IMG/VR virus record: IMGVR_UViG_3300046804_000662
Span: 1 to 35,236 of that record
Length of the DNA: 35,236 nt
Reading direction: 5' to 3' (one strand)
From: a virus
Both the position numbers and the translations under genes were made by a program. Positions 29,213 to 34,427 of this stretch are shown here, one piece after another (position 1 is the first letter of the stretch; each line of letters begins with the position of its first letter). A model generated the notes under the pieces. The model saw only the letters and a list, made by a program, of their open reading frames with translations. It did not search any database and was not told where the DNA came from.

Positions 29213-29758
29213 ATGAGTAAACAAAAACATTATATAAACAATGAAGATTTTTTAAAGGCATTAGTAGACTACAAAACTAGATGCACAGAGGCCGCCGCAC
29301 AAGGCAAACCTAAACCTAATATTCCCAATTACATTGGCGAATGTTTTATGAAGATTGCCGAAGGTCTATCACACAAACCAAACTTCATCAACTACACATA
29401 TCGTGATGAAATGATTGCCGATGGTATCGAAAACTGTCTGATGTATTTCGAGAACTTTGATCCTACCAAATCTAAAAATCCATTCGCATACTTCACTCAA
29501 GTAATCTATTTTGCTTTCTTACGCAGGATTCAAAAAGAGAAGAAACAACTATACGTCAAATACAAGGCCACAGAAATGTATGGTGTTTTGGATGAATTCG
29601 AAATGTTAGAGAGTGAAGATGGTGTCACCAAACAATTTGAATTGTATGAGAATATTTCCGAATTCATTGAGAATTATGAAGATGCCAAAAAGACCAAAAA
29701 GGAAGCCAAAAATTTGGTAAAGAAACCAAAAGGACTTGAAAAATTTATTGAGGAGTGA
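29213..29758 (+). CDS. 55: Late-promoter sigma factor gp55
   Basis: The 181-residue protein matches gp55 of marine T4-like phages: 'HYINNEDFLKALVDYKTRC', 'PNYIGECFMKIAEGLSHKPNFINYTYRDEMIADGIENCLMYFENFDPTKSKNPFAYFTQVIYFAFLRRIQKEKKQLYVK'. The middle part is the region 2-like core that contacts core polymerase and the TATAAATA box, including 'NPFAYFTQVIYFAF'. The C-terminus is Lys-rich and may hold the sliding-clamp-binding end. It directs transcription from the late boxes found throughout this window. The usual co-activator gp33 is not visible here. The upstream gap of 72 bases contains no convincing promoter. Confidence 0.93.
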   Translation: MSKQKHYINNEDFLKALVDYKTRCTEAAAQGKPKPNIPNYIGECFMKIAEGLSHKPNFINYTYRDEMIADGIENCLMYFENFDPTKSKNPFAYFTQVIYFAFLRRIQKEKKQLYVKYKATEMYGVLDEFEMLESEDGVTKQFELYENISEFIENYEDAKKTKKEAKNLVKKPKGLEKFIEE

Positions 29759-30535: not shown

Positions 30536-31599
30536 AAGTAGCCATAATAACCGACCAACATTTTGGTGCCAGAAATGACTCTACGTTGTTTCTAGATTTC
30601 TTTGAAAAGTTTTATAAAGATGTTTTCTTTCCAACATTAGAAAAAGAAAAGATTGATACCGTATTAATTCTTGGTGATACCTTTGACCGTAGAAAGTATG
30701 TCAACTTCTTTTCATTGAAACGTGCCAAACAAATGTTCTTTGAACCACTTTTTAATCGTGGTATACAAGTTCATATGTTGGCTGGCAACCACGACACCTA
30801 CTTTAAGAATACGAATGATGTTAACTCAGCAGACTTGCTGTTGGGTGAATACGGCATTTCATTAAATGTGATTGACCACCCAGCTGAAATCTACGTTGGT
30901 CCCCACAAAATCTGTATGATGCCTTGGATATGTGCCGAGAATTATGAAGATTCTATGGAAACATTAAAAGATACCGATGCAAAATTTTGTATGGGTCATT
31001 TTGAGATTGCCGGCTTTGCCATGTATCGTGGTATGCCATCAGAAGGTGGTCTAGACCGCAGTATTTTTAGAAAGTTTAGTCACACATTTAGTGGTCATTA
31101 CCACCACAAATCTTCCAGTGATGATATCTTTTATCTTGGAAACCCATATGAATTAACGTGGCAAGATTATAACGATCCACGTGGTTTCCATTTGTTTGAT
31201 TTAGATACACATCAATTGGAGTTCGTAGAGAATCCATATAAAATGTTCCATCGAATTATCTACGATGATAAGGAACAAACAATCAAAGAGATTGACAATA
31301 TGGATTTGAAACCATACACCAACACATACGTTAAAGTGGTTGTAATAAACAAAACCAACCCGTATTTGTTTGACAAGTTCATGAATAACCTGTATAATGT
31401 AAACCCAGCAGACATTACTATTGCGGAAGACTTTTCAGAATTGACTGATGATGACACTTTAGTGGATGAAGCTGAAGATACTCTTACCATACTCAACAAA
31501 TATGTTGATGGTATTACAGAAGAAAGTATCGACAACGATAAATTGAAAACAATATTGAAAGAACTCTACGTAGAGGCATTGAATACTGAACAAGCATGA
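30532..31599 (+). CDS. 47: Recombination nuclease subunit gp47 (Mre11-like)
   Basis: The 355-residue calcineurin-type phosphoesterase is the nuclease half of the gp46-gp47 complex that resects DNA ends for recombination-dependent replication and host DNA degradation. Metal-binding motifs are complete: 'TDQHFG' (Asp8, His10), 'LGDTFD' (Asp49), 'GNHD' (85-88), 'MGHFEI' and 'SGHYHHKS'. Length matches T4 gp47 (339). The start overlaps the cytidylyltransferase stop and the end overlaps gp46 (ATGA), giving tight coupling. Confidence 0.96.
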   Translation: MKVAIITDQHFGARNDSTLFLDFFEKFYKDVFFPTLEKEKIDTVLILGDTFDRRKYVNFFSLKRAKQMFFEPLFNRGIQVHMLAGNHDTYFKNTNDVNSADLLLGEYGISLNVIDHPAEIYVGPHKICMMPWICAENYEDSMETLKDTDAKFCMGHFEIAGFAMYRGMPSEGGLDRSIFRKFSHTFSGHYHHKSSSDDIFYLGNPYELTWQDYNDPRGFHLFDLDTHQLEFVENPYKMFHRIIYDDKEQTIKEIDNMDLKPYTNTYVKVVVINKTNPYLFDKFMNNLYNVNPADITIAEDFSELTDDDTLVDEAEDTLTILNKYVDGITEESIDNDKLKTILKELYVEALNTEQA

Positions 31600-33314
31600 T
31601 TTTATTCCAAAAAATTAAGTGGAAGAATTTTCTATCCACTGGTGCCCATTATACCGAGATTGATTTTACCAAGTCCAACAACACATTGATTGTTGGTCAC
31701 AACGGTGCAGGCAAGTCTACAATCTTAGATGCATTATGTTTTGGATTGTTTGGTAAACCTTTCCGTAAAATTAACAAACCACAACTTGTAAATTCAATTA
31801 ACAGTAAGGATACTGTAATTGAGATACATTTTAATATTGGCCAAAAGAAATATAAGGTCATTCGTGGAATTAAACCGAATGTATTTGAAATTTATTTGAA
31901 TGATGTTTTGCTGAACCAGGATGCCGCTGCAAAAGACTATCAGGAAATACTAGAGAAGAATATTCTCAAATTAAATTATAAGTCCTTTACGCAGGTGGTA
32001 ATCCTTGGTTCAGCATCCTTTGTTCCGTTCATGCAACTATCGGCTGCTGACAGGCGTGCTATCATTGAGGACCTTTTGGACATCCAAATATTTTCTTCAA
32101 TGAACAATGTCATCAAGGAAAAAAATTCTGAAATCAAAGAGAACTTGAATAAAACAAAGTATGCCATATCTCTTGCAGAAGAAAAAATAAACCTACAAAA
32201 ACAAAACATCGAGGAAAATAAAAAGAACACCGATGCGGAAATTAATAAAAAGAAAGAAGAAATAAGAAAATCTAATGAACAATTGGTGGAATTAAATAAA
32301 ACTGTGGGTCTAATACAGAAACACATTGACGTATTACAAAATAAAGTTGGTGATAAGAAAGAGAAACTTGACAAAAAAGCCAAGGGTCTATTTCAAATCA
32401 AAGGTAAGGTGCAAACTAATATTGACCGTAATCAAAAGGAGATTGACTTCTATGAAAACAACCATGACTGTCCAACCTGTAAACAACCAATTACTACCGA
32501 ATGGAAAGATTCTCAAGTTAAAGAAAAGACTCAGAAAATTTCTACACAAAAAACTGGCTTGGAAGAAATAGAACAGGAGTTAACCAAAGTAACTTCTGAA
32601 ATGAAATCTATTACGGATATCATCGCACATATAAATGCACATAATGGTGAAATCATCAAACACACTTCAACCATAACTGCCATAAACCAATACATTTCAA
32701 AACTGAATGTGGAGTTACAAGAATTATCTGTGCGAGATATCAATACAGAAGGCGTCAACCAAAAATTAATTGAGTTAAATGCTGAACTAAATGAACATAA
32801 AAAATATTATGAAGAAGTGTTGACTGAAAAACACTATTATGAATTTGCAGGATCATTGTTGAAAGATGGGGGCATCAAGACTAGAATCATTAAACAATAT
32901 TTACCTATTATGAATAAGTTGATAAACAAATACCTAACAGCAATGGATTTCTTTGTTAACTTTAATATCAACGAAAACTTTGAAGAAACAATTAAGAGTA
33001 GGCACCGTGATGAATTCTCTTATGCCAATTTCTCCGAAGGTGAAAAGATGCGTATTGACTTGGCACTATTGTTTACATGGAGACAGATTGCCAAATTAAA
33101 GAACTCTACCAATACAAACTTATTGATACTGGATGAAGTGTTTGATTCAAGTTTGGATACTGTTGGAACAGAAGAATTTTTAAAGTTGATACAAGAAATG
33201 GGCAAAGAAACAAATGTGTTTGTTATTTCCCACAAGGGCGACCAACTGTTCGATAAATTTAGGAGCGTAATTAAGTTTGAGAAAAAGAACAATTTCAGTC
33301 GTATTGCCAAATAA
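31596..33314 (+). CDS. 46: Recombination ATPase subunit gp46 (Rad50-like)
   Basis: The 572-residue SMC-like ATPase has Walker A 'GHNGAGKST' (34-42, Lys40), a coiled coil of about residues 180-420 broken by the zinc hook 'CPTC' (Cys292, Cys295), the ABC signature 'NFSEGEKMRIDLALLF' (Ser480) and Walker B 'LILDEVFDSS' (Asp513-Glu514). It partners gp47 in end resection. Length agrees with T4 gp46 (560). The last two sense codons and the TAA stop form part of the left arm of the hairpin described at 33307-33359. Confidence 0.97.
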   Translation: MILFQKIKWKNFLSTGAHYTEIDFTKSNNTLIVGHNGAGKSTILDALCFGLFGKPFRKINKPQLVNSINSKDTVIEIHFNIGQKKYKVIRGIKPNVFEIYLNDVLLNQDAAAKDYQEILEKNILKLNYKSFTQVVILGSASFVPFMQLSAADRRAIIEDLLDIQIFSSMNNVIKEKNSEIKENLNKTKYAISLAEEKINLQKQNIEENKKNTDAEINKKKEEIRKSNEQLVELNKTVGLIQKHIDVLQNKVGDKKEKLDKKAKGLFQIKGKVQTNIDRNQKEIDFYENNHDCPTCKQPITTEWKDSQVKEKTQKISTQKTGLEEIEQELTKVTSEMKSITDIIAHINAHNGEIIKHTSTITAINQYISKLNVELQELSVRDINTEGVNQKLIELNAELNEHKKYYEEVLTEKHYYEFAGSLLKDGGIKTRIIKQYLPIMNKLINKYLTAMDFFVNFNINENFEETIKSRHRDEFSYANFSEGEKMRIDLALLFTWRQIAKLKNSTNTNLLILDEVFDSSLDTVGTEEFLKLIQEMGKETNVFVISHKGDQLFDKFRSVIKFEKKNNFSRIAK

Positions 33315-33359
33315 GTTAAAGTTTGTTTTTGTATAAATAAAAAAGAATAACTTATTTGG
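33307..33359 (+). promoter_or_regulatory. Long-range hairpin hiding the RBS of the endonuclease VII-like gene
   Basis: CCAAATAAGTTA (33307-33318) and TAACTTATTTGG (33348-33359) are perfect 12-base inverted copies, extended by two G-U pairs. The left arm covers the end of gp46. The right arm ends inside the likely Shine-Dalgarno GGTG (33358-33361). The 29-base loop contains a late promoter. No T run follows, so it is not a terminator. Confidence 0.75.
33332..33339 (+). promoter_or_regulatory. Perfect late promoter box (TATAAATA) inside the hairpin loop
   Basis: TATAAATA is an exact T4 late consensus. Transcription from it would start near 33345, after the left arm of the inverted repeat and just before the right arm, giving RNA that cannot form the hairpin. 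It is the only exact late box seen downstream of the sigma70 promoter. Confidence 0.75.
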
Positions 33360-33366
33360 TGCAAAA

Positions 33367-33825
33367 ATGGCTAGACAAAAAAAGTATACAGATTTACCAG
33401 ACAGAAATCATCCAGATTACATGAAACTTTACGTGGCAAAGCGTAAAGATGAATTGAAAGAACAACAAAAGGTTTATAGAAGTAAAAGATTGGAAGATAA
33501 TCCAAATCATTATAAAGAACATTATAAGAAATATGAACAAACGAGTCGGCAATGGAGGACGATAAACAAACCCACAATTGCAGAAAATCAATGGAAATCC
33601 CGTGGTATCGTTGACATGTCTTATGAAAAATTTTTGTGTGAACTGGATAAACAAGATTATAAATGTATGGTGTGCAATAAAGAGTTGACAAATCCTCAAG
33701 TTGACCATGACCACAACACCGGAAAATATAGAGGTATACTATGTGTGCCTTGTAATAATGGACTAGGTGTGTATGAAAAGAAAAAAGATTTGTTTGAAAA
33801 TTATTTGAAAAGGATTGCAAAATGA
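33367..33825 (+). CDS. Endonuclease VII-family HNH nuclease
   Basis: The 152-residue protein ends with a recombination endonuclease VII core. This has zinc cysteines Cys100-x2-Cys103 and Cys126-x2-Cys129, with the active-site 'VDHDHNTGKYRGIL' (Asp113 to His116) and 'CNN' between or after them. In T4 gp49 (Holliday junction resolvase, 157 residues) this core is N-terminal and followed by a dimerisation region. Here it is C-terminal and preceded by about 95 basic, Lys/Tyr-rich residues. It may be the gp49 functional equivalent or a free-standing DNA-cutting nuclease of the same family. Late-only translation (hairpin and internal late promoter) favours a packaging-linked resolvase. Its stop overlaps the deformylase start. 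Confidence 0.8.
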   Translation: MARQKKYTDLPDRNHPDYMKLYVAKRKDELKEQQKVYRSKRLEDNPNHYKEHYKKYEQTSRQWRTINKPTIAENQWKSRGIVDMSYEKFLCELDKQDYKCMVCNKELTNPQVDHDHNTGKYRGILCVPCNNGLGVYEKKKDLFENYLKRIAK

Positions 33826-34427
33826 GTATAGAAACCACAGAAGATATTGTCTTATACGACACAGAACAAGCCATTAAAGTTAAACAGCCTACTCCGGCAC
33901 CGGTTGAAACATTTGATTTGGTTCCACCTGACCATCCAGCTCTTTACAAAGTTTTACCAGAATTTGACTTTGCAAATGCACCTATTAATCCAAATAGTTT
34001 TGCATCCACTTTGGTAGAAACTTGTAAGAAACATAACGGCATTGGTCTATCTGCTAACCAATGTGGTTTTGAATACCGTGTTTTTGTTATGGGTGCAGGC
34101 GAAGAATATGTGGCATACTTCAATCCTAAAGTTATTTCTTCCGAAGGTGAGAAACATATGGAAGAAGGATGCCTATCATTCCCTTTCCTAAACCTACACA
34201 TCACTAGACCTGAGAAAGTGGAAATCGAATACCAAGACTACATGGGACAACCACATACCAAAACATTTACTGGTATATCTGCAAGATGTTTTCTCCATGA
34301 GCTTGACCACATGAACGGAATCGTGTATACTAGCCGTGTAAAACCTCTTGCGTTGCAATTTGGTTTAAAGAAACTGGATAAAATCCGAAGAAAATATTTT
34401 AAAATTCCTAAAGCAAAAAGAAAATAA
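33822..34427 (+). CDS. def: Peptide deformylase with N-terminal extension
   Basis: The 201-residue enzyme removes the formyl group from new proteins. All three motifs are intact: 'GIGLSANQ' (73-80), 'EGCLSFP' (Cys117 as metal ligand) and 'HELDH' (159-163). About 25-30 residues precede the usual start of the domain and end in a Pro-rich linker (KQPTPAPVETFDLVPPDHPAL). The extension has no signal peptide character. Deformylase genes are common auxiliary genes in cyanophages and other marine myoviruses, where they may sustain host or phage protein maturation. The gene overlaps the nuclease upstream (ATGA) and the DUF4338 gene downstream (TAATG), so it would share the late transcript from 33332 and early read-through. 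Confidence 0.93.
   Translation: MSIETTEDIVLYDTEQAIKVKQPTPAPVETFDLVPPDHPALYKVLPEFDFANAPINPNSFASTLVETCKKHNGIGLSANQCGFEYRVFVMGAGEEYVAYFNPKVISSEGEKHMEEGCLSFPFLNLHITRPEKVEIEYQDYMGQPHTKTFTGISARCFLHELDHMNGIVYTSRVKPLALQFGLKKLDKIRRKYFKIPKAKRK

Follow-up and report, generated by a model that had tools for sequence, protein, structure and literature searches.

A candidate early-off/late-on control region in an optional EndoVII-family nuclease cassette of a T4-like phage

Known translational switches and the locus compared with them

Several T4 genes have structures at their start sites that block translation. A review lists e, soc, 49, and I-TevI among them (PMC3014915), which confirms the precedent that an earlier note on this DNA had drawn on. 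In the case of e, late promoters just upstream give RNA without the 5' strand of the stem (PMC3014915). A second review describes such structures joined with late or middle promoters in I-TevI, I-TevII, I-TevIII, segB, and Aeh1 mobE (PMC2988022).

The locus analyzed here resembles several of these systems. It lies in a 35,236-nt stretch of viral DNA (IMG/VR record IMGVR_UViG_3300046804_000662), referred to as the window. As with I-TevI, and also I-TevII and I-TevIII, the cargo appears to be a mobile nuclease, and the position of the late promoter leaves only read-through RNA able to fold over the ribosome-binding site (PMC2988022). Unlike those genes, the one in the window has no intron, the left arm of its hairpin lies in the 3' coding end of gp46, and its product is an EndoVII-family HNH protein. 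Aeh1 mobE and T4 segB are likewise free-standing nuclease genes in phage operons with a hairpin and a late promoter (PMC2988022), whereas here the nuclease family and the site are different and the upstream gene receives a new end from the cassette. T4 gene 49 has the EndoVII-family core and is listed with an inhibitory start-site structure (PMC3014915), but it lies between pin and nrdD and encodes an N-terminal HNH core followed by PF09124, while the present gene is optional and its core is C-terminal. T4 e and soc also have an inhibitory stem in early RNA (PMC3014915), but they are not mobile. Overall the sequence fits best with a mobile free-standing, possibly homing, nuclease under a switch of the I-TevI/mobE/49 type. 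We put the probability that the feature is an early-off/late-on control region of an optional nuclease cassette at about 0.68. The features concerned are the following.

29213-29758, plus strand: gp55 late sigma factor (phrog_234, E=3.3e-64), the expected reader of ATAAATA promoters
31596-33314, plus strand: gp46, SbcC-like recombination nuclease subunit (phrog_77, E=1.3e-176), with its stop codon at 33312-33314 in the left arm
33296-33796, plus strand: optional cassette of about 500 bp, missing in phages L013 and L014, whose sequences flanking the site are about 99% identical to the window
33296-33314, plus strand: replaced 3' end of gp46, holding most of the left arm (from comparison of tails with relatives lacking the nuclease gene)
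33307-33318, plus strand: hairpin left arm CCAAATAAGTTA, predicted in read-through (early) RNA only
33332-33339, plus strand: late promoter TATAAATA in the apical part of the hairpin, with a predicted RNA start at about 33345
33348-33359, plus strand: hairpin right arm TAACTTATTTGG, in early RNA and predicted late RNA, overlapping the first two bases of GGTG
33358-33361, plus strand: GGTG, Shine-Dalgarno-like as read from the sequence, 5 nt 5' of start codon ATG 33367
33367-33825, plus strand: 152-aa EndoVII-family HNH nuclease (PF02945, E=9.5e-15)
33822-34427, plus strand: peptide deformylase (PF01327), its start overlapping the nuclease stop (ATGA)

The proposed mechanism concerns an optional, presumably mobile EndoVII-family HNH gene that has come to separate gp46 from the deformylase gene in a T4-like phage. 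In early and middle read-through RNA the end of gp46 would pair with the segment upstream of the nuclease start and hinder the ribosome to some degree. Late transcription dependent on gp55, from TATAAATA within the hairpin, would give RNA beginning near 33345. This RNA would lack the left arm, and the nuclease would be translated from it. Ribosomes finishing gp46 would sit over the left arm and might unfold the hairpin, a point that counts against the switch.

The hairpin and its late promoter

A perfect 12-bp inverted repeat surrounds the promoter motif directly upstream of the nuclease gene. The repeat, the box, and the right arm are exactly where the earlier note had placed them, and the left arm does hold the end of gp46. 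The repeat extends to imperfect arms of 24 nt separated by 5 nt. The right arm had been said to run into GGTG; it reaches the GG, but the remaining bases are outside the perfect repeat, and the next T is able to form a G-U pair. No other inverted repeat in the window is perfect over 12 bp with a loop of 3-40 nt, and 0.25 would be expected per window in first-order Markov sequence. The probability of a 12-bp repeat with a loop of 15-40 nt in one 70-nt stretch of the local composition is 0.0002.

Predicted folds differ between the read-through RNA and the predicted late RNA in the direction that a switch calls for. RNA 33290-33400 has a predicted fold of -21.4 kcal/mol (z -3.0), while RNA 33345-33400 is without strong structure (-3.4 kcal/mol, z +0.7); the earlier note had proposed this comparison. 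The isolated hairpin is predicted at -16.9 kcal/mol at 37 C. Its minimum free energy stem extends above the perfect 12 bp, and therefore part of TATAAATA itself is paired. When folded with longer flanks, several lineages, among them the window, show only a modest early-to-late change in Shine-Dalgarno exposure, which counts against the switch. The layout is nevertheless that expected of a switch: the repeat in the read-through RNA reaches the ribosome-binding site, and the promoter lies between the arms, so that the predicted late RNA is without the left arm. The promoter-in-hairpin arrangement proposed earlier is supported by the sequence.

The evidence for the promoter is its position rather than its number, because TATAAATA occurs three times in the window and 2.9 occurrences are expected. 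ATAAATA is found ten times on the plus strand. Nine of these copies are 13-65 nt upstream of gene starts, a zone that makes up 5.4% of the window (binomial p=4e-11), and the remaining copy is 11 nt from a gene start. Judging from this placement, ATAAATA is a genuine late-promoter signal in this phage. The RNA start near 33345 was predicted from T4 late-promoter geometry. A gene-blind scan covered 167 ATAAATA-to-ATG pairs from 13 phage fragments and T4. The lowest possible shuffle p, 1/301, is shared by the window site, an HNH_3 gene, and a nucleotidyltransferase-like gene present in two copies. The T4 sites picked up at p<=0.05 were 26/51, I-TevII, and e; regulation is already known for 26, I-TevII, and e (PMC2988022, PMC3014915).

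The nuclease cassette

The nuclease gene and its control region are carried on an optional insert. The gene order in the window is uvsY, uvsW, gp55, gp47, gp46, the 152-aa PF02945 gene, peptide deformylase, and a DruA-domain gene. In blastn the window is 98.8% identical to L013 up to 33295 and 99.1% identical from 33797, and in L013 the ends of these matches meet, overlapping by 10 nt. The presence and absence of the gene between such flanks fits the insertion pattern of a homing endonuclease, and the cassette may have moved by homing. It contains a recoded 3' end of gp46 with the left arm, the late promoter, the right arm, and the EndoVII-family HNH gene. The last 19 nt of gp46 use other codons and a TAA stop, and the C-terminal peptide NNFSRIAK is unchanged. 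The gp46 tail of relatives without the nuclease gene, AAGGATTGCAAAATGA, includes the deformylase ribosome-binding region; where the cassette is present, this tail instead closes the nuclease gene. In L096 the nuclease end is of a different local type, GTGGCAAAATGA, which is like the gp46 tail of L085-like phages. In the empty-site phages L013 and L014 the deformylase start overlaps the gp46 stop instead of the nuclease stop. With this exchange of overlaps, the switch may delay deformylase synthesis from read-through RNA as well.

The distribution of the gene points to repeated change at this site. On the gp46 tree, lineages with the gene are interspersed among lineages without it, and well-supported branches require at least four changes; gains and losses are inseparable on this tree, and sampling was biased in that the basal lineages bearing the gene were found through the gene. 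For the window, the recoded tail speaks for a gain of the cassette, but relaxed constraint after insertion could also give the recoding. Eight relatives that lack the gene at this site have no PF02945 match in 96-180 kb, and these genomes may be incomplete. Two phages without the gene, L065 and L066, have a recoded gp46 tail, AGCCGTATTGCAAAATAA plus TAA, possibly the remnant of a cassette since lost or else a resistant allele. We tentatively suggest that the replacement tail repairs the gp46 peptide, supplies the left arm of the switch, and confers resistance to the nuclease, the original tail having become the 3' end of the nuclease gene. This is possible rather than probable; if true, host-gene repair, timing, and self-immunity would all be served by one short sequence.

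The protein has the catalytic core of the EndoVII family in a different domain arrangement. The PF02945 core is at residues 93-148, the C-terminus of the window protein. Within it the zinc cysteines C100, C103, C126, and C129 and residues D113, H114, H116, and N130 are invariant in an alignment of 11 relatives, and the protein is presumably an active nuclease. The PF09124 dimerization domain gave no match in the window protein and matches T4 gp49 at E=1.5e-33. An AlphaFold model (pLDDT 90.6) has T4 EndoVII as its best structural match, a weak one covering about 88 columns of the core only (TM about 0.35). A search of bacterial and archaeal genomes found no relatives of the protein.

Recurrence in relatives and alternative explanations

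The layout recurs at the same site in other lineages, with hairpins of varying strength. In the window and nine other lineages the gene between gp46 and deformylase is preceded by a hairpin around a promoter-like box, which lies about 30-37 nt before the gene start; this box deviates from perfect ATAAATA in L006 and L109. The hairpin pairs the Shine-Dalgarno sequence directly in L006, L104, and L107, and in L006 a perfect 13-bp stem (ACTCCAAAAAGTT/AACTTTTTGGAGT) covers it. The earlier note had regarded uncompensated loss of pairing in relatives with the same gene order as evidence against a switch, and this is seen in part. L003 and L096 keep the order with shorter stems that end beside the Shine-Dalgarno sequence and do not bury it, and in L113 the gene has neither promoter nor intergenic gap.

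The arms were compared across lineages for compensatory change, a check that the earlier note had proposed. Swapped arms pair worse than own arms, with p=0.006 over 10 lineages and 1e-4 over 13 sites. Without the window and L006 the test is not significant (p=0.17-0.25), and the covariation signal is carried largely by these two. A seven-lineage alignment has 70.4% paired cells in register and a covariation score of 0.130, compared with at most 0.093 when slid. Five base pairs have changed on both sides, and the outermost pairs over the Shine-Dalgarno sequence are formed mainly in the window. The per-site duplex-energy test is significant only for the window, L006, L104, and L059, and single-site p-values of relatives were not relied upon. 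Nuclease sites exceed 45 other late promoters in pairing across the predicted RNA start (p=5e-4) and in pairing of the Shine-Dalgarno sequence and start (p=0.007), and do not differ from them in whole-region folding z (p=0.14). This comparison is conservative because strongly structured controls (a nucleotidyltransferase-like gene, HNH genes, and a terminator-like site) were kept.

The distribution of similar layouts ties the candidate switch to nuclease cassettes and not to the insertion site. Non-nuclease inserts between gp46 and deformylase have the ATGA overlap and no ATAAATA. These include a methyltransferase-like gene in L016 and its kin and a heme-oxygenase-like gene in L086, both named by eye from translations. 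A GIY-YIG gene, in L059, does have ATAAATA. EndoVII-like inserts occur elsewhere, between gp47 and gp46 in L048 and L182-184 and before gp46 in L115, and these too have a late promoter between inverted repeats. Related layouts are found at nuclease genes elsewhere, in L048/L182-184, L059, L121, L125, L141, and L201.

Several further sites have promoter-flanking repeats. In L141 (9573-9604, HNH gene) and L121 (5368-5391, a NUMOD-like fragment with no Pfam match) a late promoter lies between short perfect repeats that take in the Shine-Dalgarno sequence. In L201, which belongs to another phage, the repeat TAGGGTT/AACCCTA surrounds TATAATAAATA upstream of an HNH-like gene that is part of a nucleotide-metabolism operon. 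In L194, L196-L199, and L204 a palindrome around GTATAATAAACAA abuts the start of genes that appear by eye to be Zn-ribbon/GIY-YIG-like. It lies upstream of position 1501 (1121 in L198), and its end pairs have changed together (GG/CC, GGG/CCC, AG/CT). The L196 gene is between thioredoxin-like and queE-like genes and does not reach Pfam GIY-YIG. In L128 (2925-2960) and the G010 homologue a perfect 13-bp promoter-flanking hairpin (GTTCCTCCGGAAT/ATTCCGGAGGAAC) precedes a nucleotidyltransferase-like gene and buries its Shine-Dalgarno sequence, which makes it a very strong candidate for a switch on a non-nuclease gene. In L139 (13500-13564) a strong GC-rich terminator-like hairpin is followed directly by a late promoter within TTTTCATA/TATGAAAA, which precedes a 173-aa gene.

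The nature of the nuclease and the role of the hairpin can each be explained in other ways. The earlier note proposed a resolvase made only when packaging begins, and a true Holliday-junction resolvase equivalent to gp49 would be consistent with the EndoVII-family HNH core and its conserved catalytic residues. It would also agree with the inhibitory start-site structure of T4 gene 49 (PMC3014915), upstream of which ATAAATA is followed by CCCTTA/TAAGGG before the start. However, the gene is missing in the near-identical L013 and L014 and was not found in the eight 96-180 kb relatives, recurs as an insert at other sites, and encodes a protein without PF09124, with a reversed domain layout and a structural resemblance to T4 EndoVII confined to the core. 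The packaging-timed resolvase is therefore unlikely. By domain and presence tests the window nuclease is not a gp49 orthologue, and the EndoVII family name should not be taken to mean resolvase.

A chance or weakly functional hairpin in AT-rich sequence around an ordinary late promoter would account for the composition of the region, the weak pairing in some relatives, and the overlap of local folding z with controls. It is quite unlikely given the low local probability and uniqueness of the repeat, its tied best rank in the 167-site scan, and the recurrence of promoter-flanking pairing across lineages. The palindrome is also centered on the promoter, as it would be if the nuclease or another protein bound there as a DNA operator and repressed its own synthesis. 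The operators of I-TevI, and probably of I-TevII and I-TevIII, overlap their own promoters (PMC2988022). A shared operator would keep its sequence, but the arms differ by lineage, the window having CCAAATAAGTTA and L006 ACTCCAAAAAGTT, while own-arm pairing is kept and extends to the Shine-Dalgarno sequence, so this explanation appears distinctly improbable; operator and RNA-switch roles are not exclusive. An intrinsic terminator or RNA-processing site shielding the cassette from upstream transcription would suit a hairpin that follows directly on the gp46 stop codon. Most of the stem is A-U, though, and the sequence after the right arm, GTGCAAAAATGG, has no U tract, nor does the complement of the left arm. 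The terminator was rejected for want of a U tract on either strand, and shielding of this kind is very improbable.

An early-off/late-on switch on an optional nuclease cassette would extend the circuit of cultured T4 relatives to uncultivated, metagenome-derived T4-like phages. Natural comparisons, between phages about 99% identical that differ in carrying the cassette and between lineages in which the hairpin is strong, weak, or missing, bear on why mobile nucleases stay silent early in infection.
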